Position numbers and translations under genes: made by a program. Shown in pieces: positions 25,720 to 50,813 of a stretch of DNA of 64,000 nt (its first letter is position 1; each line of letters begins with the position of its first letter). The notes beneath the pieces are model-generated. The model saw only the letters and a list, made by a program, of their open reading frames with translations. It was not told the origin of the DNA and ran no database searches. Location of the stretch: assembly GCF_900105215.1 (NCBI RefSeq), contig NZ_FOIP01000002.1, positions 558,001 through 622,000 of the forward strand, given 5' to 3'. This DNA comes from Lacrimispora sphenoides (GTDB lineage: Bacteria; Bacillota; Clostridia; Lachnospirales; Lachnospiraceae).

Positions 25720-25739
25720 TCAAGAGAAGAAAGGAATGT

Positions 25740-26729: not shown

Positions 26730-26735
26730 TATCAT

Positions 26736-26768
26736 ATGGCCTGTCTGTCTGATTGACAGACAGGTCAT
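26736..26768 (+). other. Perfect intercistronic hairpin without U-tract
   Basis: ATGGCCTGTCTGTC (26736-26749) pairs with GACAGACAGGTCAT (26755-26768), 14 pairs with one G-U, loop TGATT. No T-run follows, so it probably stabilises or separates the transcripts of the two flanking genes. Confidence 0.7.
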
Positions 26769-26791
26769 AGTTATCAAAGGAGAATGAGAAT

Positions 26792-28894
26792 ATGATACCT
26801 GATAAATATTTGGAAAAGGTATATTCCGGATTTCTGGGGATGAATATTGGTATTCGTTTAGGGGCTCCTGTAGAGCCGACCATATGGACTTATGAACGTA
26901 TTTTAAATACATATGGCGAAATTACGGATTATGTAAAGGACTATAAAAATTTTGCTGCAGATGATGATGTGAATGGGCCGGTTTATTTTCTTCGGGCTTT
27001 ATATGATGATGCAAAAGACGGTAATTTAAAACCCCAGGATGTTGCCAGGGCATGGCTGAATTATGCCCGTGAGGGTGTCAGCATGTTCTGGTGGGGCGGC
27101 TATGGTATCAGTACGGAGCATACTGCATACTTAAACTTAAAGCAAGGTATTCCTGCACCGCAATCCGGGTCCATGAATCAAAATGGCCAATTACTTGCTG
27201 AACAGATCGGAGGCCAGATATTTATTGATACCTGGGGACTGGTAAATCCGTGCCAGCCGGACAAAGCAGCAGAATTCGGGCAGAGTGCCGCCAGTGTGTC
27301 CCATGATGGAGAAGGAATTTATGGTGCCCGTTTCTTCTGTGCATGTATTGCCAATGCCTTTCGGTGCCAGGATATCCATGAAATTATTCAAGTGGGGCTG
27401 TCACAAATCCCTGGTCATAGCATATATGCAAAGGTTGTTAATGAAGTCCTTGATTTTTATAAAAAAAACAATAATTGGCGGGATTGTTATAACATGCTGG
27501 TGCGTGATTGGGGATATGATAAATACGGCGGTGTCTGCCATATTATACCTAACGCAGGTGTATGTGCATTATCCATGGTATATGGGAATGGAGATTTTGC
27601 AAGGACCGTTGAAATTGCCACCATGTGCGGCTGGGATACAGACTGTAATGCAGGTAATGTAGGAACCGTGCTGGGTGTTATGTGTGGGATCGAAGGACTG
27701 CCGAAAAAGTATCGTAAGCCAATGAATGATGGCATTATTCTATCTGGAATTTCCGGTTATTTAAACAATCTGGATGTACCTACTTACGCGAAAGAGGTTG
27801 CTCTGCTGGGTTACAGACTGGCTGAGGAAGAAGCTCCGGTCTCTCTGCTTGATAGTATAAAAGAAGGAGAAGTTCATTTTGATTTTGAACTTCCGGGATC
27901 TACTCATAATATGCGGGTATCTAATTCATTTTATTGTACTGCAAGCCATTCCACTGATGTAGCATATAAAGGAAACGGTTCGTTAAAGATATTAGTCGAT
28001 CGGATGACACGCGGAAATCAATGTAAGCTGTTCTATAAACCTTTTTACCGCCGGGAAGAATTTTCTGATGAGCGTTATATGCCGGTATTTACGCCTACGG
28101 TATATCCGGGCCAGACAGTATCTATGAAGCTTTATCTGGATCAGTGGAATGGCTGGGAAACACTTGGGATAGCGCCTTATGTTCGTTCTATGAGCGATAA
28201 AAAAGAGCATTTACAGGGATATATTAAATTAGTGCAGGGGGAATGGATTGACGTGACCTTTGTGATACCGGAGGTAGACGGGGATTTAATTGATGAAGTA
28301 GGTATTGTAATGGAAGGTTATTCCATTGCAAAAGCCAAAACCCTGGGATTCTTATACTTAGACGAATTTTTTATTACAGGTAAAAGTAAGTATACAGTTA
28401 AAATTGCAAAGCAGCGAAATGAATTTGGTACAATTACCCCATTTTCTGTCAATCATGGAGCCTGGGGAAAGGACGGAGATAAGCTGTCTCTAATGAGGTG
28501 TGAGCCGGCCTTTGCCTATGCCGGTAATTATTTTTCAAAAGATGTAAGGGTGACAGTACCGGTTACTCCGATCAATGGGGAAAGCCACCTGTTACAAATC
28601 CGTGCTCAAGGTGCAATGCGTGGATATATTGCCGGATTTTCAGAAGAGGGTAAAGCCGCAATTTATAAAAATGATTTTGGTTATAAAAAAATGATAGAAA
28701 CTGATTTTGCCTGGAAACTTGGTACTGCTTATAAACTAACTCTGGAAGCGGTTGGTGATATGATTACCTTGTCCATTGATGATGAGAAAATAATAGAGAT
28801 GAAGGATGACAGCTTCCGGTACGGCATGTTTGGCTGTGGTTCCATTGGCATGGGGAGAACATTATTTGGTGATTTTGAAATTATGGAGATTTAG
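26792..28894 (+). CDS. ADP-ribosylglycohydrolase-family protein 2 with C-terminal beta-sandwich domains
   Basis: 700 residues, twice the usual ARH length. Residues 1-350 are an ARH domain: GMNIGIRLGAPVEPT, AADDDVNGP (first Asp cluster) and GWDTDCNAGNVGTVLG (second Asp cluster). VSHDGEGIYGARF resembles the helix seen in protein 1. From about residue 365 the chain looks all-beta: one galactose-binding-like domain (FDFELPG... GSLKI) and one lamin-G/DUF1080-like domain ending FGDFEIMEI. Carbohydrate-binding-like domains on an ARH fold suggest action on a glycan or glycoside. No signal peptide. AAAGGAGAATGAG precedes the start. Confidence 0.82.
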   Translation: MIPDKYLEKVYSGFLGMNIGIRLGAPVEPTIWTYERILNTYGEITDYVKDYKNFAADDDVNGPVYFLRALYDDAKDGNLKPQDVARAWLNYAREGVSMFWWGGYGISTEHTAYLNLKQGIPAPQSGSMNQNGQLLAEQIGGQIFIDTWGLVNPCQPDKAAEFGQSAASVSHDGEGIYGARFFCACIANAFRCQDIHEIIQVGLSQIPGHSIYAKVVNEVLDFYKKNNNWRDCYNMLVRDWGYDKYGGVCHIIPNAGVCALSMVYGNGDFARTVEIATMCGWDTDCNAGNVGTVLGVMCGIEGLPKKYRKPMNDGIILSGISGYLNNLDVPTYAKEVALLGYRLAEEEAPVSLLDSIKEGEVHFDFELPGSTHNMRVSNSFYCTASHSTDVAYKGNGSLKILVDRMTRGNQCKLFYKPFYRREEFSDERYMPVFTPTVYPGQTVSMKLYLDQWNGWETLGIAPYVRSMSDKKEHLQGYIKLVQGEWIDVTFVIPEVDGDLIDEVGIVMEGYSIAKAKTLGFLYLDEFFITGKSKYTVKIAKQRNEFGTITPFSVNHGAWGKDGDKLSLMRCEPAFAYAGNYFSKDVRVTVPVTPINGESHLLQIRAQGAMRGYIAGFSEEGKAAIYKNDFGYKKMIETDFAWKLGTAYKLTLEAVGDMITLSIDDEKIIEMKDDSFRYGMFGCGSIGMGRTLFGDFEIMEI

Positions 28895-30763: not shown

Positions 30764-31201
30764 ATGGAATTAAAAATTATTCAAGGAAATGTTTCAGAAG
30801 AAATCTTAGAACTATATGTAAAGTCTTTTCGTTTGAAACCTTGGAATGAAACGTGGACATTGGATATGGCTGGTATGAGGATAAATGATTATCTTCAGAA
30901 TCCGATGGCTCTAGGATATGAAGCTCGACAAGATGGAAATATAGTTGGATTTTTAATGGGATACATAATCTCCTATTTAGGAGTTAAAGAATTTCATATA
31001 CAGGATTTTGTAATTTCTGTAGATTTTAGCAGAATGGGGCTAGGAACAAAAATGCTGTCTTTGCTTCAACAGGATGTTAAGAGAAGAGGGATAGAAAATA
31101 TTAACTTACTCACGTTGAAAGACCCAAGGACTGAAGGATTTTACAATAAAAATGGATATGAAACTGATTCAACCCTTGTGTTTATGAATAAAAAAATATA
31201 A
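30764..31201 (+). CDS. GNAT-family N-acetyltransferase
   Basis: 145 residues, single GNAT domain. The acetyl-CoA binding motif is visible as SRMGLGTKMLSLLQQD (R/QxxGxG/A type, about residues 87-102), preceded by the beta-bulge strand HIQDFVIS and followed by TEGFYNKNGYE typical of the C-terminal half. GGGGAGG lies upstream. It follows the YitT gene by 26 bases and may be co-transcribed. The substrate amine is unknown. Confidence 0.85.
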   Translation: MELKIIQGNVSEEILELYVKSFRLKPWNETWTLDMAGMRINDYLQNPMALGYEARQDGNIVGFLMGYIISYLGVKEFHIQDFVISVDFSRMGLGTKMLSLLQQDVKRRGIENINLLTLKDPRTEGFYNKNGYETDSTLVFMNKKI

Positions 31202-31534
31202 ATAGAAGTATTGTGAGATATGTATATCGTATTTATAAGCTTAAGCTATAGTAAATAGTATCAATTTTATGCAGCGCCTTTTGTTTTATAAAGAAATCAG
31301 AATCTGAAACATATCAATGAGGCCCTGTCCGGAAATCCGGAAACAGAATGTGCATGGTACCCTGCAGACAAAAAACCTTATGAGACCAGGATTATTATAC
31401 TGGCATAAGCCGCGTTTAGATACAGGGACAAAAAAGAGATCAGACTGCTTACATCTTACAGAGTAAAAATAGAGAACGGCGTGGTAACCGTTCTTTATTT
31501 TTTTGCAGAAAAAAAGAGAATCTCTATGAGTGTG
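31202..31534 (+). other. Gap with an apparent broken reading frame
   Basis: No intact gene. From 31292 one plus-strand frame stays open for 87 codons up to the TGA at 31553-31555 except for a single in-frame TAA at 31406-31408; it has no start codon. Segments such as NEALSGNPETECAWYPAD and YRVKIENGVVTVLYFF look protein-like, so it may be the remains of a gene. A hairpin AGAACGG (31473-31479) / CCGTTCT (31488-31494) followed by TTATTTTTTT inside it would work as a terminator for the upstream genes. Confidence 0.35.
31473..31504 (+). terminator. Terminator upstream of the fructose-type PTS locus
   Basis: Stem AGAACGG / CCGTTCT with eight-base loop, followed by TTATTTTTTT. Confidence 0.6.
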
Positions 31535-31609
31535 AATCATAAAGAATTGAAATGAATCAATATGAATCAAAATGATTGACAATAAATCAAAATGGTGCTA
31601 TAGTTGATT
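31535..31609 (+). promoter_or_regulatory. Phased AATCA repeats around the PTS promoter (DeoR operator candidate)
   Basis: AATCA occurs at 31535, 31555, 31565 and 31585, that is at steps of 20, 10 and 20 bases on the same DNA face; the reverse copy TGATT occurs at 31573 and 31605. The repeats overlap the promoter. Direct repeats one helical turn apart are a known binding mode of DeoR regulators, and the ATCAA core resembles the repeat reported for IolR. The regulator at 33780 is the obvious binder. Confidence 0.6.
31576..31604 (+). promoter_or_regulatory. Promoter of the fructose-type PTS gene
   Basis: TTGACA (31576-31581), 17-base spacer, TATAGT (31599-31604): close to consensus. The leader to the start codon is about 140 bases. 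Confidence 0.8.
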
Positions 31610-31747
31610 TATTGAATACGGCGGGGAAGTAGCACCTGAATCAGTGTAAAGGAGGTACGAACAGCAGTATTGAATGGGTGGAGCCGGAACATGATACATA
31701 GAAAGATACGAAACCGCAGAAAATTATTATAATCAGGAGGAATCAAA

Positions 31748-33655
31748 ATGGGGGATATAACAAAGTTTCTCTCGCCTAAGCTGATCAAAGTTAACATGCA
31801 GGCAGGGGATAAGAATGCGGCGATAGAGGAGTTGGCGGAACTTCTCTATAAGGAACATGTACTGAAGGATAAAGCCATCTATATTCAGAATGTATTGGAA
31901 CGAGAGGCACAGGTACCCACAAATCTGGAGAACGGAGTGGCATTGCCTCACGGAAAATCGGATGCAGTACTGAGACCGGCGGTGGCAATTGGAATATCCA
32001 AACGGGGAATCCGGTTCGAAGAGGGGAGCCCGGTCAGCCATATCATCTTTCTCATCGCTATGCCAAACAATGCGGACGACACGCATATTACACTGTTAAG
32101 CGGTATTACTTCCCGTTTGCTGGATTGTGATTGCCTGGAATATCTAAAGGAGGCAAAACGGCCGGAAGATATTCTGGCGGCACTTTGCACAGAGGAGGTG
32201 CGGACAGAGAACAAAGGGTCTGAACGGTTTTTAATCGGGGTGACCGGCTGTACGGTAGGAGTAGCACATACGTATCTGGCGGCGAAAGCGTTGGCAAAAG
32301 CTGCTGAGGAGATGGGCGTATCCATAAAGGTGGAAACAAACGGTTCCATCGGCACGGAAAATGTTCCCACCAGGGAAGAGATTGAACGAGCTGAGGGGAT
32401 AATCATTGCAAGCGACAAGGAGACGGATATGGAACGTTTCCGGGGAAAACAGGTAGTTACCACCACCGTAAAGGAAGGAATCGACCATCCGACGGAGCTG
32501 ATCAGAAAGGTTCTGGATGGAAAGGCCCCGGTTTTTGGCGGGAGGTCCACAGAGCGTGTTCAGCAGGCAGCCAGTGGGAAGGCGGAGGAACCTGCCGGTG
32601 CGCTTAGTGGAAAGATGCTGTACAAAGCGTTGATGAACGGAGTCTCCTTTATGATCCCGTTTGTGGTAATCGGTGGCCTGCTGATTGCAGTTGCACTGGC
32701 AGTGGGAGGAAAACCCACACCCCAGGGTCTTGTGATCCCCGAAGGCAGCTTCTGGAATCAGATTTCTGCAGTGGGAAGCGCCGGATTTACATTGATGATC
32801 CCGATTCTCGCCGGCTACATAGCATTTGCTATCGGTGACAGGGCGGCTCTGGCTCCTGGCATGATTGGCGGCTGGATCGCCAACAACGGTTCTTTTTACG
32901 GAGCGTCAGCCGGAACCGGCTTTATCGGAGCCATTGTGGCTGGTTTTCTGACCGGATACTTTGTAAGGTGGATGAAGAAATTTCGTTGGCCGGAGATGAT
33001 CAGGCCGTTGGTTCCGATCATGATTATTCCTATTATTGGATCTTTGTTTATCGCATTTGTATTTATATTTATTATCGGAGCACCCATTTCGTCACTGATG
33101 ACGGCTCTTTACGCCATGCTGGAAAGCATGTCCGCCGGAAGTATGATTTTGCTTGGTATTACAATCGGTCTGATGCAGGGCTTTGACATGGGCGGTCCCT
33201 TTGGCAAGGTGGCATTCATGTTCTCGGTTGGTTTAATTGCCGAAGGACAGCCTCAGTTTATGGGAGCTCAGGCTATGGCGATTCCGGTTGCACCGTTAGG
33301 CATGGCGCTGGCTACATTCTTAGACCGTAAGCACCAGCTGTTTCTTCCTGAGGAAACTGCCAACGGAAAGGCGGCTCTTGCCATGGGCCTGGTGGGAATT
33401 TCCGAGGGAGCTATCCCGTTTGCTGCGGGCGATCCGCTGGCCGTCATTCCGGCCAATATGATTGGATCCGTAGTGGCATGTACGATGGGATTCTTATTCG
33501 GCATTACAGATTCTGTTGCTCATGGCGGCCCAATTGTGCTGATCCTGGGAGCAGTGAACAAGCCGTTTATGGGGCTGATCTGTATGGCTGCGGGAACTGT
33601 GGTGACTGCAATTGTCTGTATAACTTTAAAGCGTCTTAAATTAAAACGAAACTAA
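31748..33655 (+). CDS. PTS fructose-family EIIABC
   Basis: 635 residues with all three sugar-specific domains in one chain. EIIA is about 1-145 with phospho-His68 in ENGVALPHGKSD. EIIB is about 160-260 with phospho-Cys168 in GVTGCTVGVAHTY. EIIC is about 285-630 with multiple membrane segments (GLLIAVALAVGG; GMIGGWIANNGSFYGASAGT; FDMGGPFGKVAFM). It imports and phosphorylates a hexose- or polyol-like compound. AGGAGGAATC precedes the ATG. DeoR, glycyl radical enzyme and activase genes follow, so the cargo is probably the enzyme's substrate and need not be fructose. Confidence 0.93.
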   Translation: MGDITKFLSPKLIKVNMQAGDKNAAIEELAELLYKEHVLKDKAIYIQNVLEREAQVPTNLENGVALPHGKSDAVLRPAVAIGISKRGIRFEEGSPVSHIIFLIAMPNNADDTHITLLSGITSRLLDCDCLEYLKEAKRPEDILAALCTEEVRTENKGSERFLIGVTGCTVGVAHTYLAAKALAKAAEEMGVSIKVETNGSIGTENVPTREEIERAEGIIIASDKETDMERFRGKQVVTTTVKEGIDHPTELIRKVLDGKAPVFGGRSTERVQQAASGKAEEPAGALSGKMLYKALMNGVSFMIPFVVIGGLLIAVALAVGGKPTPQGLVIPEGSFWNQISAVGSAGFTLMIPILAGYIAFAIGDRAALAPGMIGGWIANNGSFYGASAGTGFIGAIVAGFLTGYFVRWMKKFRWPEMIRPLVPIMIIPIIGSLFIAFVFIFIIGAPISSLMTALYAMLESMSAGSMILLGITIGLMQGFDMGGPFGKVAFMFSVGLIAEGQPQFMGAQAMAIPVAPLGMALATFLDRKHQLFLPEETANGKAALAMGLVGISEGAIPFAAGDPLAVIPANMIGSVVACTMGFLFGITDSVAHGGPIVLILGAVNKPFMGLICMAAGTVVTAIVCITLKRLKLKRN

Positions 33656-33728
33656 TTGTATCAACTGCGGCAAGGATAACCGGAACAGAGGCATTGCACC
33701 GGTTAAGATCGATCGAAAGAATGATAGA

Positions 33729-33758
33729 TTGACATATGATTTCCTCCTCTGATATGAT
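33729..33758 (+). promoter_or_regulatory. Promoter of the DeoR gene
   Basis: TTGACA (33729-33734), 18-base spacer, TATGAT (33753-33758). It gives the regulator its own transcript inside the locus. Confidence 0.65.
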
Positions 33759-33779
33759 AATGGCGAAGGAGGTGACGTT

Positions 33780-34544
33780 ATGCTATCACAGCAAAGGCTT
33801 TATCATATCATGAGTATCGTAAAAGAACAGTCTTTTGTAACCATAAAGGAACTGATGGAACAGTTAAATGTGTCAAAATCCACGGTAACCCGGGATTTGA
33901 TTGAACTGGAGGAACAGGGGCTGGTCAGCAGGGAGCGGGGTGGAGCTATGTGCAGAGAGGTTTCTTCTACACTGACGGTATTCAACGAAGTTCCTACCGT
34001 GAACAAGGAGAGTCTGTGTGCCGAGGCAAAGGAGATTGTCTGCCAGCGGGCTGTCACGAATGTAAAGGACGGGGACTGCGTTTATGTGGACTCCGGCACC
34101 ACCCCTGTTTACCTGCTGCCGCAGCTGCTTGCGCACCATGTAAAGATTGTAACTCCAAGCATTTACTTAATCAAAAAGATTCCCATTACGTACAAAGGGG
34201 ATATCTATCTGCTGGGTGGTCGTTTTTCGCCAGATTATGATCTGAGTACAGGATCCATGGCTGTGGATATGATTCGGAATTTTAATTTTGACCATTCTTT
34301 TTTCAGTACCAATGGGGTTAATATGGAAAGCGGCGAGGTTTACATTTTCGACATGGAGATTGGGACGATGAAAAAGGAGATCATGAAGAAGAGCCAGAAC
34401 AATCATCTCCTGATCGATGACTCCAAGTATCATATTAAGGCAATGTTCTCATGGGCAAGTCTGGAGGATTTTACAAACGTGTATGTCAATCGTCTCCCTG
34501 ACACAGGTGAGGCACCGGATAATTTTACCGTTTGTCTCAGTTAG
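33780..34544 (+). CDS. DeoR-family sugar regulator
   Basis: 254 residues. The N-terminal winged helix (about 1-57) shows TIKELMEQLNVSKSTVTRDL and the wing GLVSRERGGA. The C-terminal DeoR sensor domain has DSGTTPVYLLPQL and LLGGRFSPDY, which bind sugar phosphates in this family. GGCGAAGGAGGTG precedes the ATG. It sits between the PTS and the glycyl radical enzyme and probably represses both until the phosphorylated substrate appears. Confidence 0.92.
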   Translation: MLSQQRLYHIMSIVKEQSFVTIKELMEQLNVSKSTVTRDLIELEEQGLVSRERGGAMCREVSSTLTVFNEVPTVNKESLCAEAKEIVCQRAVTNVKDGDCVYVDSGTTPVYLLPQLLAHHVKIVTPSIYLIKKIPITYKGDIYLLGGRFSPDYDLSTGSMAVDMIRNFNFDHSFFSTNGVNMESGEVYIFDMEIGTMKKEIMKKSQNNHLLIDDSKYHIKAMFSWASLEDFTNVYVNRLPDTGEAPDNFTVCLS

Positions 34545-34561
34545 AATACATTGGAAGAAAA

Positions 34562-34591
34562 GGGGACGCAGTTAAGCGCCCTCTTTTTTTT
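34562..34591 (+). terminator. Terminator behind the DeoR gene
   Basis: GGGGACGC (34562-34569) pairs with GCGCCCTC (34576-34583), followed by eight T. I see no convincing promoter between it and the glycyl radical enzyme, which may depend on readthrough or an activator. Confidence 0.8.
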
Positions 34592-34699
34592 ACTAAAAGT
34601 GCAGAACCGGAACAGGACTGCAGAACGGGGCAGTAAGAGGAAAGCTAAAGAACATAAGTGATTTTTCAAGTAATATTCGATAGAGGAGGAGATTCTGCA

Positions 34700-36970
34700 G
34701 TGAAAAAGAAAATTAACATTGACGGCGCTCAGAACGTAGAGGTGTCAATCCCAATTCCCAGTGAAAAAACACCGCGGGAGCAGTTGTCTATTATGGAAGC
34801 CTATACAGAGGCGCATAGAAACAGTGAGGGACTGGATAAGGCGAGAAGAGAGATTAATTGCCTGAAAGCAATATACCCGGTTCTCTTCCGTTCGATTGAA
34901 AGTGATGATCTGCTGGCAGGCAGACTTGATTTTTTGCCCATTGGTTTTGGCAGCGTAACAAGTATCGGAGGCGTAGGCCATTACTGCGTATTCCATAAGC
35001 TGAGGGCATTTAAAGAAACGCTGTCGACCGAAGAAGAAAAAGCAAGAGTTGATACGCTTTACGATTACTGGCAGGAACACGATACGAAAGCAATTTACTG
35101 TCAGGAGGTATTGACAGAGGATACCGTGGGAAGGTTTATTGATTGCTCCTATCCTCTGATGGCAACAGCCAGGTTGTCGGGTATGATGTTGAATTATAAA
35201 AAGCTGATGGAATATGGAGTGGAAGGCTTAAAAGAACTGATCCGTTCAAAAGAACAGAATGAATTCCTGGAATGCAGTTATGAAAGCCTTTGTCTTTTGC
35301 AGGAGGTAATGGAACGTCAGATGGAGCTGGTGAGAGAAGCAAGAACCGGTGCAGACCAGTCCCGTTTGAAAGATTTGGAACTAATGGAAAATGATTTGCG
35401 GTATATTAAGAAGAACAAACCCCGCACGTTCCACCAGGCTTTGCAGTTGTTTTGGATTTACGCTCTTTGTGCCGGAGTAATTAACTATGGGCGGCTGGAT
35501 GACGTGCTGGGACCATTTTTACAGCATGATCTGGATCATGGCTTGATTGATGAAGAAGAGTCTTACCGGTATCTGAAATCCTTGTGGAAGATGATTGAGA
35601 ACAGGCGTACCACGGTTAACGGGCGTATTATAGTAGGCGGTGTAGGTCGGGAACATCCGAAAGAAGCAGATACATTTGCCCGTATCTGTATGAGGGTGTG
35701 TAAGGACACTCGTTATGTAGAACCCCAGTTTACCCTGCGCTTTAGCAAGGATACCCCAGAGTACATAATGGATATGGCCTATGATTGTATCGGAAGCGGT
35801 GCTACTTACCCGACTTTATACAATGATGATGTGAATGTACCTGCTGTTATGTATTCCATGCGTGTGAATCGGGAGATCGCTGAACAGTACGTTCCATTTG
35901 GATGCGGTGAATTTGTCATTCAGGGTAAGAGCGTAGGGACACCGAATATTTTACTGAACCTTTTAAAAATCCTTAATATTACCTTAAACGGCGGAATAGA
36001 CCCTACGGACGGGAAAAGAAAAAGCGGACCCGTGGAGATTCCGGAATGTTCCCAGTTCAAAACCTATGACGAACTGTTTGATAAATATAAGGAGTTGTTG
36101 AATTATTACTTTGATTTAAGCATACAGGCTCAATACCGTTCTTACGAGATCATGAATGAAAAAGTCTCCTTTCTGTTTACTTCCGTTTTAATGGATGATT
36201 GTATCAATAGAGGGAAAGCAGGGCTGGATGGAGGAGTGGAAATCCTTGGCGGAACCAATGAAACATACGGTAACATCAATTCCAGCGATTCACTCTGGGC
36301 GATTAAAAAGCTGGTGTATATCGATAAAAAATATAGTCTCAGTGAATTGCACCAGGCACAGCTTGCCAATTTTGAAGGATATGAGAGGATTCGAAAAGAT
36401 TTATTGGATCAGGATAAATACGGCAATGACAAAACGGAATGCGATAATCTCGCAAATGATTTATTTGAATTTGTAGCCAAAGGGATCCGCCAGAAGGGGA
36501 TTGATTATGGCATGGGATATTTTCTGATTGTTATTTCAAATAACCAGACAAATACAGATTGGGGCCATGGGACATCTGCCAGCCTGGACGGAAGGAAAAC
36601 AGGTGTTTATTTGAATCCAGCTAATAATCCCCAGGGCGGAGCGGCTAAAAACGGGCCTACCGCCTGCTTGAATTCCCTGGTTAAGTTCCAGGCAAAATAT
36701 CATGGGGGAAGCGTGCAGAATATCAAATTTACGCCCCGTATGTTCAATAAAGACAGAAAAAAAGTTAAGATGCTGTTTGATACATACTTTAAGAAAGGGG
36801 GCTGCCAGCTCATGGTAACGGTGGTGGACTATGGCGTTCTTGAGGATGCACAAAAGAATCCAGAGAATTATCCGGATTTAATTGTACGGGTGGCCGGTTA
36901 CAGTGCGGTCTTTGTGAATCTGACAAAGGATATCCAGGAAGAATTGCTGAGCAGGGCATTGTATGATTAG
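34700..36970 (+). CDS. Glycyl radical enzyme of the PFL/diol-dehydratase superfamily, substrate unknown
   Basis: 756 residues from a GTG at 34700; TAGAGGAGGAG nine bases upstream decides this start. The catalytic Cys402 lies in VPFGCGEFV; the more usual neighbour sequence in dehydratases and lyases is GCVE. The radical-bearing Gly733 is in RVAGYSAVFV, 24 residues from the end, as normal. The enzyme is oxygen-sensitive and needs the activase encoded in overlap. It is linked to a PTS and a DeoR regulator, and not to microcompartment genes, which suggests a sugar- or polyol-phosphate substrate. One reported class opens 1,5-anhydroglucitol 6-phosphate; I cannot confirm membership. Confidence 0.92.
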   Translation: MKKKINIDGAQNVEVSIPIPSEKTPREQLSIMEAYTEAHRNSEGLDKARREINCLKAIYPVLFRSIESDDLLAGRLDFLPIGFGSVTSIGGVGHYCVFHKLRAFKETLSTEEEKARVDTLYDYWQEHDTKAIYCQEVLTEDTVGRFIDCSYPLMATARLSGMMLNYKKLMEYGVEGLKELIRSKEQNEFLECSYESLCLLQEVMERQMELVREARTGADQSRLKDLELMENDLRYIKKNKPRTFHQALQLFWIYALCAGVINYGRLDDVLGPFLQHDLDHGLIDEEESYRYLKSLWKMIENRRTTVNGRIIVGGVGREHPKEADTFARICMRVCKDTRYVEPQFTLRFSKDTPEYIMDMAYDCIGSGATYPTLYNDDVNVPAVMYSMRVNREIAEQYVPFGCGEFVIQGKSVGTPNILLNLLKILNITLNGGIDPTDGKRKSGPVEIPECSQFKTYDELFDKYKELLNYYFDLSIQAQYRSYEIMNEKVSFLFTSVLMDDCINRGKAGLDGGVEILGGTNETYGNINSSDSLWAIKKLVYIDKKYSLSELHQAQLANFEGYERIRKDLLDQDKYGNDKTECDNLANDLFEFVAKGIRQKGIDYGMGYFLIVISNNQTNTDWGHGTSASLDGRKTGVYLNPANNPQGGAAKNGPTACLNSLVKFQAKYHGGSVQNIKFTPRMFNKDRKKVKMLFDTYFKKGGCQLMVTVVDYGVLEDAQKNPENYPDLIVRVAGYSAVFVNLTKDIQEELLSRALYD

Positions 36971-37865
36971 AGTGACCAATATTGAACGCTTTGCGACCCA
37001 TGACGGGCCGGGAATCCGTACCACCGTTTTCTTAAAAGGATGCCCCCTGTACTGTCCATGGTGCGCCAATCCAGAGACACAGACATCTTATCCGGAACTG
37101 TTATACAACGAGTCGAAGTGTATCGGGTGCCGTTCATGCGAAAAGGGATGCGGGACTAAGGCTATTACCTTTGATGACAACGGAACGTTCCATTATAACA
37201 GGAACTTATGTACCGATTGCCTGGCCTGTGAGAAAAATTGTATGCAGAATGCAATTGAATTTTTTGGAAAAGATATGGAACTGGATTTCATCATGGAAGA
37301 AGTGATGAAGGATAAGGATTACTATGATAATTCCGACGGCGGGGGAATCACGGTCAGCGGAGGGGAGCCCTTTGTACAGCTGGAGGGGCTGATCGCCATT
37401 CTCAAAGCAAGTAAGGAAAGGGGATTGAATACGGCAGTAGAAACTACAGGGAATTATTCTTTAAAAGCCCTGCAGACTGCGGAACCCTATATCGACCATT
37501 TTCTCTACGATTTTAAACATCTGGATGACGAAGTGCTTAAAAGGGTTACAGGAGGAAATGGGAGACAGATTAAAGATAACCTGATATATCTGGTAGAGAT
37601 GTGTCCAGATAAGTTAACGGTGCGCATGCCGATTATTCCTGGATTCAACTTTGATTCCGCATTAATAAAAAAGACTTTGGAATACTTACAGCAACTGGGA
37701 GTTAAACGCGTAAACCTTCTTCCTTATCACACACTTGGAAAAGCGAAATACGAGAAATTGGGAAGAGTTTACCAGATGACTGATAAAATGCTTCATGAAG
37801 AAGATTTAGAGGAATATCACCAATATGCATTGAAGATTGGGTTGGAATCCAGAATCGGAGGATAG
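36963..37865 (+). CDS. Glycyl radical enzyme activating protein (radical SAM)
   Basis: 300 residues. The radical SAM motif is CPLYCPWC (CxxxCxxC, about residues 27-34), preceded by THDGPGIRTTVFLKG. Two ferredoxin-like 4Fe-4S motifs, CIGCRSCEKGC and CTDCLACEKNC, are inserted after it, as in activases of non-PFL glycyl radical enzymes. VSGGEPF is the SAM-binding GGE motif. It abstracts hydrogen from Gly733 of the enzyme encoded just upstream; the two genes overlap by eight bases, which implies translational coupling. Confidence 0.95.
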   Translation: MIRVTNIERFATHDGPGIRTTVFLKGCPLYCPWCANPETQTSYPELLYNESKCIGCRSCEKGCGTKAITFDDNGTFHYNRNLCTDCLACEKNCMQNAIEFFGKDMELDFIMEEVMKDKDYYDNSDGGGITVSGGEPFVQLEGLIAILKASKERGLNTAVETTGNYSLKALQTAEPYIDHFLYDFKHLDDEVLKRVTGGNGRQIKDNLIYLVEMCPDKLTVRMPIIPGFNFDSALIKKTLEYLQQLGVKRVNLLPYHTLGKAKYEKLGRVYQMTDKMLHEEDLEEYHQYALKIGLESRIGG

Positions 37866-37875
37866 AAGCAAAAAA

Positions 37876-37913
37876 ACAGGAAGGAACATGATATGAGGTC
37901 CTTCCTGTTTTTT
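37876..37913 (+). terminator. Terminator of the glycyl radical locus
   Basis: ACAGGAAGGA (37876-37885) pairs with TCCTTCCTGT (37899-37908), followed by TTTTT. Confidence 0.85.
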
Positions 37914-37931
37914 AGCATGCTTGGGTGTAGT

Positions 37932-37971
37932 TACTATACTAAAGTAGAGTATATGTACTAAAGGTGCGTAC
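37932..37971 (+). promoter_or_regulatory. Tandem HxlR/YodB-like operators
   Basis: TACTATACTAAAGTA (37932-37946) is an inverted repeat TACT-n7-AGTA that closely follows the published site of the redox regulator YodB. A second site GTACTAAAGGTGCGTAC (37955-37971) touches the -35 box. No HxlR gene is in the window. Confidence 0.6.
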
Positions 37972-38000
37972 TTGTTGATGCATTATGTTAATGATAAAAT
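37972..38000 (+). promoter_or_regulatory. Promoter of the flavodoxin-like reductase genes
   Basis: TTGTTG (37972-37977), 17-base spacer, TAAAAT (37995-38000) with an extended -10 TG. Confidence 0.55.
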
Positions 38001-38031
38001 GAGTATAAAAAGTCAATGGAGGTTAAAAGGT

Positions 38032-38568
38032 ATGAAAATAGTTGTTTTAACCGGAAGTCCTCATAAGGATGGTACATCGGCATTAATGGCGGAGAATTTT
38101 ATGAAAGGAACTGTTGAAGCAGGCCATGAGGTTTTCCGCTTTGATACTGCTTTTAAGAAGATTCACCCCTGTATTGGCTGTGACAAATGTCAGTATGGAA
38201 AGAATCCTTGCGTTTTTCGGGATGATATGCTGGAACTTTACCCCAAACTGATAGAAGCTGATCTGGTAGCCTATGTGACACCCCTTTATTATCACAATGT
38301 TTCCGCGCAGTTGAAAGCGGCAATAGACCGTTATCATGGGATTAATAACCTTATCCGAGGGACGGGGAAAAAGGCGATTTTGATTGTGACTGCAGCATAT
38401 CCAGAGGAGTGGGTATTACATGGTATTACTGCAACCTACGAAACTACGCTCAAATACCTTGGCTGGCAGGACTGCGGTAAGATTCTGGCTTACGATTGTC
38501 GCCGCCGGTCTGATATTGAGAATACGGATTACCCGAACCAGGCATATGAGCTTGGACGCGGATTATAA
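38032..38568 (+). CDS. Flavodoxin-fold NAD(P)H-dependent reductase / iron-sulfur flavoprotein-like
   Basis: 178 residues from ATG 38032, with TGGAGG upstream. The FMN phosphate loop is TGSPHKDGTSA (about 7-17). A compact Cys motif CIGCDKCQYGKNPC (about 48-61) matches the Fe-S site region of iron-sulfur flavoproteins. TPLYYHNVSAQLKAAIDR is the conserved flavin-side segment. It probably reduces quinones or other electrophiles in the cytoplasm. YodB-like operators in the promoter fit this detoxification role. A related gene follows after 14 bases. Confidence 0.85.
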   Translation: MKIVVLTGSPHKDGTSALMAENFMKGTVEAGHEVFRFDTAFKKIHPCIGCDKCQYGKNPCVFRDDMLELYPKLIEADLVAYVTPLYYHNVSAQLKAAIDRYHGINNLIRGTGKKAILIVTAAYPEEWVLHGITATYETTLKYLGWQDCGKILAYDCRRRSDIENTDYPNQAYELGRGL

Positions 38569-38582
38569 GGAGGCATGTGATT

Positions 38583-39149
38583 ATGGCAATTATAGTAGTA
38601 TGGTCATCCCCTAATAAAAATGGACTTACAGCAGCTGCAAAAGATAGGGTGATTACAGGAATTAAAAACGCAGGTTTTGAAGCAGAAGAAATTCATCTGA
38701 ATCAAATGAAAATGGAGCATTGCAAAGCCTGTGGAAAAGGCTGGGGAATTTGCAGAACAAAAGGTGAGTGTATTATAAATGATGATTTTGCAGCTGCCTA
38801 TGAAAAGCTGGTTCAGGCAGACGGCATTGTAATTGTATCAGCCGTTTATTGGCATGACATTACCGAGTGTATGAAAGCATTCTTGGATCGTCTGCGCAGA
38901 TGTGAGACCGCACACAATAAATATTTAGCAGGCAAAAGATGTCTTCTTGTAGCCTGTGCCGGAGGTACCGGTCTGGGAGCAGTAGAATGCCTGCACAGTA
39001 TGGAGGAAACTTTGAAGCATATGAGCATGAGGGCTTATGACAGGCTTCCGGTAATTCGCTATAACGAAGGCTATATGCTTCCGACATTAGAGAAGGCCGG
39101 AGAAACTTATGCGGTCCGGTTGGCAGAAGGCTTTGATATGCAATATTGA
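38583..39149 (+). CDS. Second flavodoxin-fold reductase
   Basis: 188 residues from ATG 38583; AAGGAGG lies nine bases upstream, so the GTG at 38577 is too close. The phosphate loop is degenerate (WSSPNKNGLTAA). A Cys-containing segment CKACGKGWGICRTKGEC and SAVYWHDITECMKAFLDR match the same family as the preceding gene. The two proteins are probably co-expressed and perhaps act as a pair in FMN-dependent reduction of electrophiles. Confidence 0.82.
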   Translation: MAIIVVWSSPNKNGLTAAAKDRVITGIKNAGFEAEEIHLNQMKMEHCKACGKGWGICRTKGECIINDDFAAAYEKLVQADGIVIVSAVYWHDITECMKAFLDRLRRCETAHNKYLAGKRCLLVACAGGTGLGAVECLHSMEETLKHMSMRAYDRLPVIRYNEGYMLPTLEKAGETYAVRLAEGFDMQY

Positions 39150-41818: not shown

Positions 41819-43915
41819 ATGTTTCAAATCGGAAAGCGCGAAATCGAACTTCTATATTTGGTAAATTCATCGAAGGATGGGTTTATTTACAGAGAGTTAA
41901 TTGAGAGATTTGGATATACGGAACGTTCTTTTAAATATGCAGTCGACTTAATCAATAGTTTTCTGAAAGAAAACTCCCAACAGGCCTGTTTCGTACTTGG
42001 CAACAAGAGATGCTATCTAAAAAATGCCCCTCTATCCATGAAGTTTACTATGGATCATATTACAAAAGAACAGTATTACCTTTCGAAGGAAGACCGCTGT
42101 GAAACTATTTTCTTCCGGTATCTTGCTGATTTACACTATACAATTGATGAAATTACAGACTATTTGGCTGTGAGTAAATCTACGGTAAAGAAATCCCTTG
42201 CAGTAGTTAAGGAAGAATGCGGGAAATACGGTCTGGAACTTGTAAACCATAAGAGAATGGGGATTGAGTTAAATGGAAGTGAAACGGTAATCCGTTCAGC
42301 ACTCATGGATATTCTTTATAAATACTGCGGCCTGTCAAATCAGGACAGTAAACACAGGAAGCTTGCAATCCGCAACTGCAATCCTTATTTAAGAGAATGG
42401 ATCGAAGCGGTTTTTAACCAGTATCAATCAGAACAGAAAGCGGAGGTTTTACTATCCTCTATATGGGAATATTTGCCGGTGATTCAGAATGATGAAATTT
42501 ATATACTGGCAGTTCTGAACCTGATTCTGGTATTTTACAGAACAGGAAGCGGGTATTACGTTTCAGCAGATGCAAAGGAATACGTAGGATTGGAAGGGAG
42601 AAAGCTGGCAGAAGTCATCAGCAGTTCCTGTGAGAAACATTTAAAGATCAAACTGCCCTGTGAAGAATTTTTTAAATTTGTCATTGTTTTAAACAAAGGT
42701 TATTCCATAGAAAGCAATGAAAAAGACCAATATCTGCTAATTGGAAGTATGATCTGGATCCATCGTCTGGTTTCTGATTTGCTGCAGAAATACACAAACC
42801 AGTCTTTTGGGTCACTGATAAATGAATACAGCTTAAACGAAGCATTGGATATGCTCTACAACCATTTCTATGCAGCGGTGGAGAGAGTAAGGAGAAACAT
42901 TTATATTCAGAATCCAATTCTTCAGGACATAAAAGAAGAATACGGGGAGGCATTTCATGATGTTGAGAGCAGTTTAGAAGGGCTTGAAAATTATCTGGAA
43001 AAGAAATTTTCACAAGATGATATCGGATATTTCACCTTGTTGATAGAGAATATCATTTCCCAGGTCCACAAACAGAAGAAACGGGTCCGCAGGATTGTTC
43101 TTATCTGTGGTTTGGGCTTTGGAACCGCCCAAATGGTGAAAAATAAAATCATGCAGAAGTTTGATGTGTTGATCGAAGATGTAATTCCTTATTATAGGCT
43201 GGACACTTATGCGGATAATAAGAATATCGATTTATTCGTATCAACTGTCCCTGTAAAGATAAATACAGTCAGCAATGTGGTGGAGGTGAATCCGCTGCTT
43301 ACAGAGCAGGATGCAGAAGCTTTGATAAAAGCAGGAATGGTCCGCGTGGGCAATGATTTATCCACGCTGATGCAGTTAATAGAGCAGAATGCAGTGATAA
43401 CCAATCGTCCCCGTTTAGAAAAAGCACTAAAGGAATTAAATGGAATCAGAGATTTGAAACATTCTAAATATGAGATTTTATTAAAGTATCTGCCAGAATG
43501 CAGGATCCTTGTCAATCAAACTTATAAAAACTGGCAGGAAGCCATTGATGCGGCTGGCGGTCTTCTGGTAGGGACGGATTGTGTTTTGCAGTCTTATGTG
43601 GAAGATATGATCAATAATATCAAAGAGTTCGGTTCTTATATCACCATAGGCAATGGAATTGCCCTGCCTCACGCCAGAAATAAGAATAATGTGAAAAAGA
43701 CCGCATTCAGCCTGATTACACTAAAAAAGCCGGTAGTATTTGATAATGGGAAAGAGATTGATACGGTTATCAGTTTCTGTAATGTTGCAGGCAATGATTA
43801 TACAACAGCACTGACGGCTCTCATGGAATTAAGCGAGAACCAGTCCTTCCTGGACTATAAAAAAAAGGTGGAAACACCAAGCCAGCTATTGGATTATATA
43901 AAAAAATTAAAGTAG
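41819..43915 (+). CDS. BglG/MtlR-type PRD transcriptional regulator with EIIB and EIIA domains
   Basis: 698 residues. N-terminal helix-turn-helix segments (about 1-160; IDEITDYLAVSKSTVKKSL) indicate DNA binding. Two PRD domains span about 175-420. An EIIB-like domain has Cys430 in VLICGLGFGTAQM. A C-terminal EIIA domain has His618 in GIALPHARNKNN. Phosphorylation of these sites by the PTS tells the protein whether its sugar is present. The EIIA, EIIB and EIIC genes follow directly, so it is most likely their activator. GGAGTTAAG precedes the ATG. Confidence 0.92.
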   Translation: MFQIGKREIELLYLVNSSKDGFIYRELIERFGYTERSFKYAVDLINSFLKENSQQACFVLGNKRCYLKNAPLSMKFTMDHITKEQYYLSKEDRCETIFFRYLADLHYTIDEITDYLAVSKSTVKKSLAVVKEECGKYGLELVNHKRMGIELNGSETVIRSALMDILYKYCGLSNQDSKHRKLAIRNCNPYLREWIEAVFNQYQSEQKAEVLLSSIWEYLPVIQNDEIYILAVLNLILVFYRTGSGYYVSADAKEYVGLEGRKLAEVISSSCEKHLKIKLPCEEFFKFVIVLNKGYSIESNEKDQYLLIGSMIWIHRLVSDLLQKYTNQSFGSLINEYSLNEALDMLYNHFYAAVERVRRNIYIQNPILQDIKEEYGEAFHDVESSLEGLENYLEKKFSQDDIGYFTLLIENIISQVHKQKKRVRRIVLICGLGFGTAQMVKNKIMQKFDVLIEDVIPYYRLDTYADNKNIDLFVSTVPVKINTVSNVVEVNPLLTEQDAEALIKAGMVRVGNDLSTLMQLIEQNAVITNRPRLEKALKELNGIRDLKHSKYEILLKYLPECRILVNQTYKNWQEAIDAAGGLLVGTDCVLQSYVEDMINNIKEFGSYITIGNGIALPHARNKNNVKKTAFSLITLKKPVVFDNGKEIDTVISFCNVAGNDYTTALTALMELSENQSFLDYKKKVETPSQLLDYIKKLK

Positions 43916-43924
43916 GTGAATGAA

Positions 43925-44359
43925 ATGAGTATTATCAATGAAAAATGTATAGCATTAAGGCTTGATGCCTCTGACGCACAGGAGGGGATTATAAAAGCCG
44001 GGCAGGTGCTTCTTCATCAGGGGTATATCAGGAAAGAGTATATTGATGCGATGCTGAAAAACTTCGAAAAGAACGGCCCTTATTTTGCCATTGCACCTGG
44101 TTTTGCAATGCCTCATGCAAGGCCGGAGGATGGAGTCATTCAATCCGGAATATCCTTAATTACCCTTGAAAATCCGGTTTCTTTTGGAAGCAGCAACGAT
44201 CCGGTGAAGCTGATTATGGCACTTGCAACCAGCAGCGATGATGAACATCTTGAGTTTATGACGAAAATAGCCGGACTTTTAGGAAAGGAACATGTGATAG
44301 ACAGGTTGTATCAGTGCGTGACAGCTGATGAGGTCATGTCAATCATAAACAATAATTAA
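43925..44359 (+). CDS. PTS EIIA, mannitol/fructose-ascorbate type
   Basis: 144 residues from ATG 43925, with AGTAGGTG upstream; a GTG at 43916 overlaps that site. The single EIIA-2 domain has phospho-His64 in GFAMPHARPEDG, the UlaC-like arrangement. It takes phosphate from HPr and gives it to the EIIB encoded 15 bases downstream. It nearly abuts the regulator gene and belongs to the same operon. Confidence 0.92.
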   Translation: MSIINEKCIALRLDASDAQEGIIKAGQVLLHQGYIRKEYIDAMLKNFEKNGPYFAIAPGFAMPHARPEDGVIQSGISLITLENPVSFGSSNDPVKLIMALATSSDDEHLEFMTKIAGLLGKEHVIDRLYQCVTADEVMSIINNN

Positions 44360-44374
44360 GCAAAGGAGACGAAA

Positions 44375-44647
44375 ATGATGAAAGTATTAGCAGTTTGTGG
44401 ATTGGGTATGGGGTCCTCTCTTATCCTTCGGATGAATATTGAGGATGTGTTTAAGGCAGAGGGAGTGAAAGCGGAGGTGGAACACAGCGATGCTTCTGCA
44501 GCAAGCGGCGAAGCGTGTGATTTCATTGTTACAACAAAAGAAATTGCACAGTCACTTCAAAATCCAAGGGGAAAAGTAATTATTCTTGAAAATTTTATCG
44601 ACAAAGAAGAAATTAAAAGAGTGTTAAAGGAGAACCATGTTTTCTAA
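44375..44647 (+). CDS. PTS EIIB, ascorbate (UlaB) type
   Basis: 90 residues. The phospho-Cys is Cys8 in VLAVCGLGMGSSLILRM, the pattern typical of UlaB-like EIIB proteins. AAAGGAGAC precedes the ATG. Its position between EIIA and the UlaA-like EIIC shows that the three form one permease. Confidence 0.93.
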   Translation: MMKVLAVCGLGMGSSLILRMNIEDVFKAEGVKAEVEHSDASAASGEACDFIVTTKEIAQSLQNPRGKVIILENFIDKEEIKRVLKENHVF

Positions 44648-44670
44648 TTACAAACGGAGGAGGTTTAGGT

Positions 44671-45966
44671 ATGGCAGTAGTAAATTGGATTGCAACTAAT
44701 ATTTTTGGGAATGCCGGCTTTTTATTAGGAATTATCGTTATGTTGGGGTTGATTCTCCAAAAGAAGTCATTCAGCCAGACGGTTCAGGGAACGATTAAAG
44801 CGATTATCGGTTTTCAGATTATCGGAATTGGTTCAGGAATTGTGGTTTCCTCTCTGAACGTTTTCCAGCCTATGTGGGCTGAGGTGTTTGGACTGGAAGC
44901 ACAGAGTCTTGGCAAATATATGGGACAGAATGATTTTGTTCAAAGATTCGGTACCGTAGTTACCCTTTCAATGACATTTGGATTTCTGATCAATGTACTT
45001 CTGGCACGGATTACAAAATTTAAGTATATCTATTTAACTGGTCATATGATGTTCTGGACTTCTCTTATTTTTGCAGGAATCATTTTTGATCAGAATATCA
45101 ATGCAAATACATTTGCAGTAACTGTATTTTTATCAATTGTATTGGGCGTTTACTGGACATTACAGCCTGCTTTGACACAGCCTTTCTTAAGAAAAATCAC
45201 GGGAAATGACAGTGTGGCACTGGGACATACATCAGCTTCTGTTGCATTTTTAGGTGCAGTGGCAGGCAAATTTGTGGGAAATAAGGACAAGAGCACAGAA
45301 GACCTGGTTATCTCTGATAAATGGGGATTTTTAAGGGATTCCAACATTGTTACCGGAATTACGATGGCAGTTTTGTTCATCATTGGTACCATCCTTCTTA
45401 TGATCAAAAATACAGAGGGTGCCAGAGAAATTCTTGTAACCTCAGGAGATACAAGCTTTATCATATACTCCATATTAACCAGTTTACAATTTGCAGGCGG
45501 TATTGCGGTGGTACTTTTCGGAGTCCGCATGTTTATTGGTGAAATGGTACCTGCTTTTAAGGGAATTGCTACGAAAATCGTTCCAGGTGCAATACCTGCC
45601 CTTGATGCACCCATTGTTTATCCCTATGCGCCCAATGCGGTTATTATCGGATTCCTTGGAGCATTTGTGGCAAGCTTAATCTGGCTTGTAGTTTTAGGAA
45701 ATACCGTAGGTTATGTGTTTGTTCCCACTATGATTGCTATTTTCTTCCATGCTGGAACAGCAGGAGTTTTTGGCAATAAAACAGGTGGAATCAGAGGAGC
45801 ACTGTTTGCAGGTGTTATTACGGCAACAATCATTGCAATCGGCCAGTATGTCATGGTTACGTTCCTGGCACCAACGACTGTTCCAGATGTAGTTATGTGG
45901 GCTGCTGATTCCGATATGTTTATCATTGGGCCGATTATCCGGTTCATTGCCGGCTTCTTATTCTAA
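44671..45966 (+). CDS. PTS EIIC, ascorbate (UlaA/SgaT) type
   Basis: 431 residues, about 11 membrane segments. GNAGFLLGIIVMLGLILQKKS at the N-terminus (shown in part), LTQPFLRKITGNDSVALGHT and FGNKTGGIRGALFAG are features of the UlaA family. Family members carry L-ascorbate, but many homologues carry other compounds. The downstream genes do not include the usual UlaG lactonase or the D/E/F enzymes, so ascorbate is unlikely. GGAGGAGG precedes the ATG. Confidence 0.92.
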   Translation: MAVVNWIATNIFGNAGFLLGIIVMLGLILQKKSFSQTVQGTIKAIIGFQIIGIGSGIVVSSLNVFQPMWAEVFGLEAQSLGKYMGQNDFVQRFGTVVTLSMTFGFLINVLLARITKFKYIYLTGHMMFWTSLIFAGIIFDQNINANTFAVTVFLSIVLGVYWTLQPALTQPFLRKITGNDSVALGHTSASVAFLGAVAGKFVGNKDKSTEDLVISDKWGFLRDSNIVTGITMAVLFIIGTILLMIKNTEGAREILVTSGDTSFIIYSILTSLQFAGGIAVVLFGVRMFIGEMVPAFKGIATKIVPGAIPALDAPIVYPYAPNAVIIGFLGAFVASLIWLVVLGNTVGYVFVPTMIAIFFHAGTAGVFGNKTGGIRGALFAGVITATIIAIGQYVMVTFLAPTTVPDVVMWAADSDMFIIGPIIRFIAGFLF

Positions 45967-45984
45967 AAAAATATGATTTTACCT

Positions 45985-46021
45985 GCATAGCCGGAGTTTT
46001 TCAAAAAACTTACGGCTATGC
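45985..46021 (+). other. Strong intercistronic hairpin after the EIIC gene
   Basis: GCATAGCCG (45985-45993) pairs with CGGCTATGC (46013-46021); inside it AGTTTTT pairs with AAAAACT. Only TTTCCC follows, so it is a weak terminator at best and may set a lower level for the enzyme genes downstream. Confidence 0.65.
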
Positions 46022-46059
46022 TTTCCCGTAGAATTCACGGACAGACAGGAGGATTTATC

Positions 46060-47049: not shown

Positions 47050-47060
47050 GAGGGGAGAAA

Positions 47061-47792: not shown

Positions 47793-47795
47793 TTC

Positions 47796-48536: not shown

Positions 48537-48559
48537 AGGGAGTAATTTAAGATAAAGAG

Positions 48560-48600
48560 AACTGCTGCGGGTTGATTTGTTTATGCCTGCAGCAGTTTTT
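48560..48600 (+). terminator. Terminator of the ascorbate-type PTS operon
   Basis: AACTGCTGC (48560-48568) pairs with GCAGCAGTT (48589-48597), followed by TTTTTATT. Confidence 0.85.
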
Positions 48601-48629
48601 ATTGGGAAAATAGAAAGAAAAACGATTAT

Positions 48630-48659
48630 TTGACGTTTGTTAAAAAAACATGATATAAT
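48630..48659 (+). promoter_or_regulatory. Promoter of the ROK regulator gene
   Basis: TTGACG (48630-48635), 18-base spacer, TATAAT (48654-48659). Confidence 0.7.
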
Positions 48660-48718
48660 ATGAAAAGCTGACAGAAACTATATCTGATGCATATTATAGA
48701 GCGGCGAGGAAGACGGAA

Positions 48719-49912: not shown

Positions 49913-49935
49913 AACTGAATATTGAATTATGCTGA

Positions 49936-49992
49936 AGCAGCATTAAGGTCATGGAACGTTTGCGCGAAAGATGACTTTGGTGCTGTTTTTTT
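49936..49992 (+). terminator. Terminator behind the ROK gene
   Basis: AGCAGCATTAAGGTCAT (49936-49952) pairs with ATGACTTTGGTGCT (49971-49984) with some mismatches, followed by eight T. Confidence 0.75.
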
Positions 49993-50037
49993 GTTTGCCG
50001 ATTCAGAAAGAAAAGATATGAAAATACAAATAACCTA

Positions 50038-50065: not shown

Positions 50066-50077
50066 TTAATAGGATAT

Positions 50078-50795: not shown

Positions 50796-50813
50796 GCTGG
50801 GAGGAGAGAGAAG

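Follow-up and report, generated by a model that had tools for sequence, protein, structure and literature searches.

A family of glycyl radical enzymes linked to NanE-type epimerases, with a candidate role in anaerobic sugar phosphate metabolism

Glycyl radical enzymes (GREs) are oxygen-sensitive radical enzymes. Two of them, YbiW and PflD of Escherichia coli, cleave 1,5-anhydroglucitol-6-phosphate (AG6P) and 1,5-anhydromannitol-6-phosphate (AM6P) after phosphorylation by the phosphotransferase system (PTS), as reported in PMC12441222 with reference to Ma et al., and the titles of PDB entries 8id7 and 8id0 agree with this function. For HypD, a trans-4-hydroxy-L-proline dehydratase, PMC7077986 reports mutants showing that H160, D278, D339, F340 and Y450 matter. 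The subject of this report is a GRE encoded in Lacrimispora sphenoides, within a stretch of 64,000 nucleotides (NCBI RefSeq assembly GCF_900105215.1, contig NZ_FOIP01000002.1, positions 558,001 to 622,000 of the forward strand) that is referred to here as the window. Sequence comparisons support its assignment to a GRE family of its own, apart from pyruvate formate-lyase (PFL) and the named dehydratases, and most of the related genomes tested also encode a distinct type of NanE (N-acetylmannosamine-6-phosphate 2-epimerase).

Placement among described glycyl radical enzymes

The GRE gene (34700..36970, plus strand) has AGGAGGAG a few bases 5' of its GTG start at 34700, ends with a stop at 36970, and encodes 756 residues in which a motif check places Cys402 within FGCGEFV, followed by Glu404, and Gly733 within RVAGYSA; in start, length and motifs the protein is as the original prediction described it. 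In Pfam it scores 399.6 bits for PFL-like and 91.3 bits for Gly_radical, and its closest named protein, at 96% identity, places the host genome near Lacrimispora. The start of the radical-SAM activase gene (36963..37865, plus strand; 300 residues; TIGR02494, 325 bits against a cut-off of 174) lies within the last GRE codons, an overlap of 8 nt, and the protein carries the CxxxCxxC motif (CPLYCPWC) and two 4Fe-4S ferredoxin motifs of the form CxxCxxCxxxC, all of which had likewise been foreseen. The GRE is one of four PFL-domain places in the 5.93 Mb host genome (E 2.1e-119), and since 1716 of 7993 scored candidates, other GREs included, match at E<=0.001, the match is not due to chance. At the level of sequence, membership of the GRE superfamily is confirmed by the glycyl loop, the Cys loop, the PFL-like barrel and the cognate activase.

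Within the superfamily the protein falls far below the cut-off of every NCBIfam GRE equivalog listed, including those for HypD, CutC and the sulfopropanediol and arylacetate GREs. HypD is its best sequence match in the PDB (E 1e-67), and equivalents of HypD Cys434, Glu436 and Gly765 are kept, but the window GRE reaches 275 bits against the HypD equivalog cut-off of 1100, and in place of H160, D278, D339, F340 and Y450 it has Gly161-Met162, a deleted segment, V306, N307 and L418, positions that are approximate at this low identity. With YbiW and PflD it has in common the GRE fold, a Cys and a Glu two residues apart, and the theme of a sugar 6-phosphate and a PTS; it differs in being only about 26% identical to them, in their loops (GCVE or GCIE), in missing a stretch of some 7 residues close to their active site, and in having Gly161 where PflD and YbiW have the histidine of a GH motif. 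In a tree of 39 rows, the window GRE and 11 sampled relatives formed a core clade (12 rows, support 100/100), and three more distant GCGE proteins (35-38% identity to the window GRE) fell with it into a wider clade on a long stem (15 rows, 100/100). PflB and HypD formed separate clades (100/100 each); YbiW, PflD and CutC fell outside the core and wider clade, their own arrangement being poorly resolved (YbiW with PflD at 59/71), and the long branches of L131, L122:6330 and CutC make the order of the other families unsure. Neither this tree nor the NCBIfam cut-offs grouped the protein with PFL or with a dehydratase of known name, the outcome that the original prediction had given as speaking against it, and it is its suggestion of a new class that holds. 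The AG6P/AM6P lyases, PFL and the NCBIfam GRE equivalogs were rejected as identities on cut-offs, alignments and tree.

The loop motif varies within the family. Rows for YbiW, PflD, CutC and HypD do read GCVE or GCIE, much as stated for most assigned dehydratases and lyases, and those for PflB read CCVS, but GCGE is not a family-wide signature, as 81 cluster sequences divide into 36 with GCGE, 43 with GCTE, one with GCND and one with GCVE, the last two being other GREs (L041:6330, L006:16882) caught in the cluster. What is uniform is the Cys-x-Glu pair, which GRE eliminases such as HypD, CutC and the diol dehydratases also have (79/79 core and 33/33 wide sequences), together with R309, E521, N614, N615 and H668, which never vary in those core and wide sequences and do not occur in any of 24 GREs from outside the family; N262, R302 and R158 are just as invariant, yet are present in 1, 2 and 3 of those 24. 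The wider GCGE clade (L126-L128, P0122-P0241; 35-41% identical to the window GRE) has in common with it the GCGE loop, R158, R309, E521, N614, N615 and H668. No NanE was seen in eight genomic contexts of wider-clade GREs that were inspected, a number that is not decisive, and some of these contexts hold sugar ABC-transporter or PfkB-like genes, identified by BLAST or by eye. An AlphaFold2 model of the GRE from a 78-row alignment reached a pLDDT of 90.9 (a first model from 13 rows, at 58.7, was discarded), and fold searches with it left the GRE eliminases tied, with no closest function singled out. Among viral contigs, 19 stretches fit a pattern and none was a relative. The literature searched, in which most subscription journals lay outside coverage, yielded nothing on this GRE family in titles and the beginnings of abstracts, nor any paper joining a GRE with anhydroglucitol or with an epimerase and N-acetylmannosamine.

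Other GREs came to light beside these families. Two (L129:6070-8481 and L130:8805-10988) have a GCNW or GCHW loop without the catalytic Glu, and an unrelated second GRE in L122 (6330-8660), with a GCND loop, adjoins DeoC, two GldA-type genes and a gene judged by eye to encode an FGGY-like kinase.

The associated epimerase and the neighbourhoods of relatives

A scan of named genomes gave 129 related loci, of which the best 80 (60-78% identity) were analysed, making 81 regions with the window; counts of neighbours are lower bounds, as many loci stop at contig ends and two (L037, L080) gave no GRE open reading frame (ORF). The hosts comprise Erysipelotrichia, Lachnospiraceae and other Clostridia, Enterococcus, Listeria, Lacticaseibacillus, Bacteroidales, actinobacteria (e.g. 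Atopobiaceae) and a spirochaete. A NanE-type 2-epimerase gene accompanies the GRE gene in 55 of the 80 loci, on the GRE strand upstream in 35 and downstream in 14 (otherwise placed in 6), and in 34 it lies no more than 200 bp upstream. Among 37 GRE-positive genomes searched, which were chosen rather than drawn at random (30 of the 37 highest-identity loci and 7 of the other 43), 32 encode a NanE of this GRE-linked type (66-100% identity), their other NanEs being at most 43% identical. None of 398 genomes of the window's phylum, that of the window included, has one (best match 45%), and among them a GRE of the GCGE clade turned up, at E<=1e-100, in the window's genome alone. The association (32/37 against 0/397) has a Fisher p of 1.5e-43, a value that is overstated because the genomes are related and the control was not matched for habitat.

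The GRE-linked NanEs are monophyletic (100/100, with 18 rows sampled of 53). They resemble canonical NanEs in their PF04131 domain and in keeping, in 53 of 53 sequences, the six catalytic residues Q11, R40, K63, D124, E180 and R208 and the two acetamide contacts F72 and Y149, the roles being those assigned to SaNanE in PMC8482478; they differ in forming a separate clade whose association is with the GRE rather than with nan or nag genes, and 20 positions fixed in them are rare in 24 canonical NanEs. Going by these residues, the GRE-type NanE should be an active C2-epimerase whose pocket has probably changed, and in the genomes compared it turned up only together with the GRE. Where it is not linked to a GRE gene, its neighbours are DeoC-like and RmlD-like (L177 and L179, with ManA also in L177) or NagB-like (L182 and L183, the latter also with Gfo/Idh genes). 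None of the NagB-like proteins reaches a listed deaminase cut-off; they retain D72, H143 and E148 (E. coli NagB numbering), with Asn replacing D141. Both deoxy-sugar and amino-sugar chemistry are hinted at.

The GRE-type NanE is absent from 5 of the 37 genomes (L009, L012, L040, L041, L049) as well as from that of the window. In five of these six genomes, that of L009 standing apart, a fructose-class PTS lies no farther than 10 kb from the GRE gene (35 bp to 8.9 kb); put the other way, the epimerase is missing from 5 of 6 genomes with such a PTS (the exception being L025) against 1 of 32 others (p 7e-5, post hoc). We read this pattern as two supply routes for one substrate, namely direct import by the PTS, or import of the other epimer followed by the action of NanE.

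Further neighbours are varied. The activase is found in 68 of the 81 regions and a DeoR-type gene in 36, that of the window among them. ROK kinases occur in 21 of the 80 loci (the one scanned resembles a glucokinase, at 249 bits where the cut-off is 260), one or another of three PTS clusters (c17, c18, c21) in 12 of the 81 regions, a mannose-class PTS in 5 loci and a fructose-class PTS in 6 regions; two other neighbour clusters, c11 and c14, are antisense artefact ORFs, and the labels FGGY, PfkB and ABC given to unscanned neighbours were assigned by eye or by BLAST. GH94-like proteins are encoded in 9 loci, 8 of them long and with a conserved DW-x-D motif in common, and PDB sequence searches with one of them and with one TIM-barrel neighbour gave no match. 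DeoC-like aldolases (6 loci), ManA-like isomerases (5), GldA (3) and GH38 (3) also occur. A sialic acid or N-acetylglucosamine (GlcNAc) operon setting was considered and rejected, as, apart from NanE and ROK, the 80 loci contain hardly any nan or nag genes.

A candidate eliminase reaction and its rivals

We give an even chance to the reading that the window GRE is a radical eliminase whose substrate is a gluco/manno hexose or hexosamine 6-phosphate that is reducing and can be epimerised at C2, most likely in its manno form. The sugar would be imported and phosphorylated by the neighbouring fructose-class PTS, a part that in some relatives would fall to a ROK kinase or to a PTS of the mannose class; delivery of a phosphorylated sugar in this way, which the original prediction had proposed for the PTS, is the best reading of the neighbourhoods. 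To judge from the motifs present and from the chemistry of homologues, the activase would generate a radical on Gly733 that is passed to Cys402, which would then abstract a hydrogen from a carbinol carbon, with Glu404 as the probable base. As in GRE eliminases, an adjoining leaving group would be expelled, be it OH, a ring or glycosidic oxygen, or an acylamino group. In most of the tested relatives the associated NanE-type 2-epimerase would, if the order of steps is as we suppose, convert the gluco epimer into the form usable by the GRE. The most concrete guess is that the axial C2 substituent would be lost from a manno-configured sugar phosphate to give a 2-deoxy product, and on chemical reasoning such a substituent is well placed for expulsion by a neighbouring carbon radical, which would explain the need for a 2-epimerase. 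Gene content, residue conservation, clade structure and co-occurrence were observed directly, whereas we infer the sugar 6-phosphate, the manno configuration and the bond broken.

More tentatively, and at somewhat less than an even chance, this would amount to a new anaerobic sugar pathway, in which the C2 (or a neighbouring) substituent of a manno hexose- or hexosamine-6-phosphate is lost by radical chemistry after a purpose-evolved 2-epimerase has set the stereochemistry at C2; descent or transfer would account for its occurrence in Bacillota, Bacteroidota, Actinomycetota and Spirochaetota, with many of the carriers coming from animal guts, and further radical sugar lyases would be found in the wider GCGE clade. 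With the dedicated 2-epimerase, a large GRE family with generic names only gains a firm biochemical partner and with it a short, testable list of substrates. If true, the proposal would give many gut bacteria a second radical means of degrading sugars next to the anhydro-sugar lyases, and would provide a case of joint evolution between an epimerase and a radical enzyme.

Several observations weigh against the eliminase reading. The window's own genome lacks the GRE-type NanE and has a canonical one elsewhere only (40%), so that the sugar is deduced from relatives, and three GRE-positive genomes (those of L012, L041 and L049) have no NanE match at all. The class of PTS is a weak guide to the choice of substrate, and 48 of the 81 regions have neither the ROK cluster nor any of the three PTS clusters, 33 having one. 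Hexosamine genes are rare near the GRE (NagA 1, NagB 2, NanA 1, AgaS 0 and MurQ 0 of 80 loci, by BLAST with the E. coli proteins), and the neighbours that do occur are mixed, including GH94-like, GH38, DeoC, ManA and GldA proteins and a 3-keto-glycoside cassette.

The order of the two steps might also be reversed, the GRE converting some unusual sugar phosphate into a 6-phosphate of the mannosamine or mannose type, which the NanE-type epimerase would pass on as GlcNAc-6-phosphate or glucose-6-phosphate to central metabolism. The gene chains that hold little beyond kinase, NanE, GRE and activase (L048, L054, L072, L075, L077, L084) are in its favour, as two steps may then reach a common metabolite, and so are the ManA-like genes, which lie in 5 of the 80 loci and beside the unlinked GRE-type NanE of L177. 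NagA and ManA pass their cut-offs in 36 and 35 of the 37 GRE-positive genomes, which would suit the same scheme, a presence so nearly universal as to be uninformative. The three genomes without any NanE would need another exit, however, and we can name no known GRE reaction that gives such a product; we consider this order rather unlikely. There is only a small chance that the enzyme cleaves a 6-phospho-mannoside such as 2-O-(6-phosphomannosyl)glycerate, with the sugar leaving in a reaction on the aglycone akin to that of glycerol dehydratase. A PTS of the fructose/MngA class and the GH38 alpha-mannosidase genes of L025, L040 and L049, which lie no farther than 10 kb from the GRE, would fit such a substrate, but radical cleavage is superfluous where GH38 occurs, those are 3 of 80 loci, no GH38 gene was seen in the window's neighbourhood, and glycosides are not substrates of NanE. 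Heyns products, which are N-substituted 2-amino-2-deoxyhexose-6-phosphates, occur as gluco and manno epimers, and a deglycase that cleaves them would be consistent with the mannose-class PTS found in one gene chain with NanE and GRE in L021, L024, L025 and L059, and with the NagB-like proteins beside NanE (L182, L183) or near the GRE (L070, L081). Its probability is very low, given that an AgaS-type SIS protein is found in none of the 80 loci (other deglycase families were not searched for) and that the GH94-like, GH38 and 3-keto-glycoside neighbours would go unexplained.

The example that the original prediction named, with a 'perhaps', was the 1,5-anhydroglucitol-6-phosphate lyase, and this comparison is not supported. 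A diverged AG6P or AM6P lyase would share with YbiW and PflD a link to a PTS, and the EIIC of the window is 44% identical over 307 residues to E. coli FrwC, which is encoded beside PflD; PflD-type operons also lie close to the GRE or NanE gene in L006 and L177. The window GRE nonetheless stands outside the YbiW and PflD branches, without their active-site segment and histidine. FSA (fructose-6-phosphate-type) aldolase genes lie near these enzymes in E. coli, and they have no link to NanE; the operon of the window GRE has none, the nearest being 13 kb away in another PTS cluster, and among the 80 related loci BLAST found one in L006 only, within the separate PflD-type operon. The PFL-domain proteins of the host genome are CutC, a PflB-type enzyme with a Cys-Cys loop, the window GRE, and a PflD-like GRE, 41% identical to PflD, with genes for an activase and an FSA-type aldolase behind it, so that anhydro-sugar lysis appears to be the task of this paralogue. 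An anhydro-alditol, moreover, has no aldehyde and by chemical reasoning would be no substrate for the epimerase tied to the family in most tested relatives. Judged from sequence and gene context, AG6P or AM6P lysis is an unlikely role. Finally, relatives carry names such as 'pyruvate formate lyase family protein' in source databases; that the window GRE is PFL or another named GRE is nevertheless barely credible, as its GCGE loop has a single Cys with Glu two residues on instead of Cys-Cys, TIGR01255 gives 92 bits against a cut-off of 994, the PflB clade is separate, and all other listed GRE equivalogs are far below cut-off.

Other genes of the window and of related loci

Upstream of the GRE gene on the same strand lie the two genes that the original prediction had named as its neighbours, and Pfam domains bear out both. 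The PTS EIIABC (31748..33655; 635 residues) has EIIA_2, IIB and EIIC domains (EIIA 7-146, EIIB 164-252, EIIC 296-573) and aligns at greater length with MngA (32% over 589 residues) and FruA (36% over 534), while remaining under every NCBIfam equivalog cut-off listed. The DeoR-family regulator (33780..34544; 254 residues) has DeoRC and HTH_DeoR domains. Promoter-like sites on the plus strand precede the PTS gene (TTGACA-17-TATAGT, 31576..31604) and the DeoR gene (TTGACA-18-TATGAT, 33729..33758), each matching the consensus at 11 of 12 positions; they are only suggestive, since the scan of 31200-38100 gave 17 sites against 12.7 (sd 4.2) in shuffles. Directly 3' of the activase gene are two genes, also on the plus strand, for FMN-reductase/flavodoxin-fold proteins (37999..38568 and 38577..39149; PF03358, 68 and 76.8 bits), both singletons among the neighbour clusters of the relatives. 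As had been predicted, no microcompartment protein was found among the scanned window proteins (sets of 9, 9 and 10, partly overlapping; small ORFs were not all scanned).

Farther along, at 41819-52603, a second PTS cluster encodes a PRD regulator, EIIA, EIIB and an ascorbate-type EIIC (476 bits, over cut-off), with phospho-furanose-lactonase-like and creatininase/IolN-like hydrolases (both below cut-off), a SIS protein, a NagC-like ROK protein, an FSA-type aldolase (over cut-off) and a split transketolase; it may perhaps serve a pathway for a furanose or an ascorbate-like acid. On the other side, at 25737-28894, two tandem genes of the ADP-ribosylglycohydrolase family lie behind what by eye look like ABC sugar-transporter genes, an odd setting for ADP-ribose chemistry.

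Among the relatives, Bacteroidales loci (L048, L062, L065, L077, L084) have the GRE set near a 3-keto-glycoside cassette, which may supply the sugar; a 3-keto-disaccharide-hydrolase cluster occurs in 8 loci, and a BT_2158-type dehydrogenase is over cut-off in L065. The Breznakia locus L178 (4-3438) holds the end of a GRE gene, 49% identical to the family cluster and probably PflD-type, followed by genes of the 3-hexulose-6-phosphate synthase, phosphohexuloisomerase and ManA types, and homologues of the first two in L068 pass the respective cut-offs. In two metagenome-assembled genomes of Anaerostipes, a fusion of iron hydrogenase, rubredoxin-like and rubrerythrin parts is encoded directly 3' of the GRE activase (L043:13355-15445 and L046:5626-7716), that of L043 having been scanned and that of L046 assigned by their common cluster.

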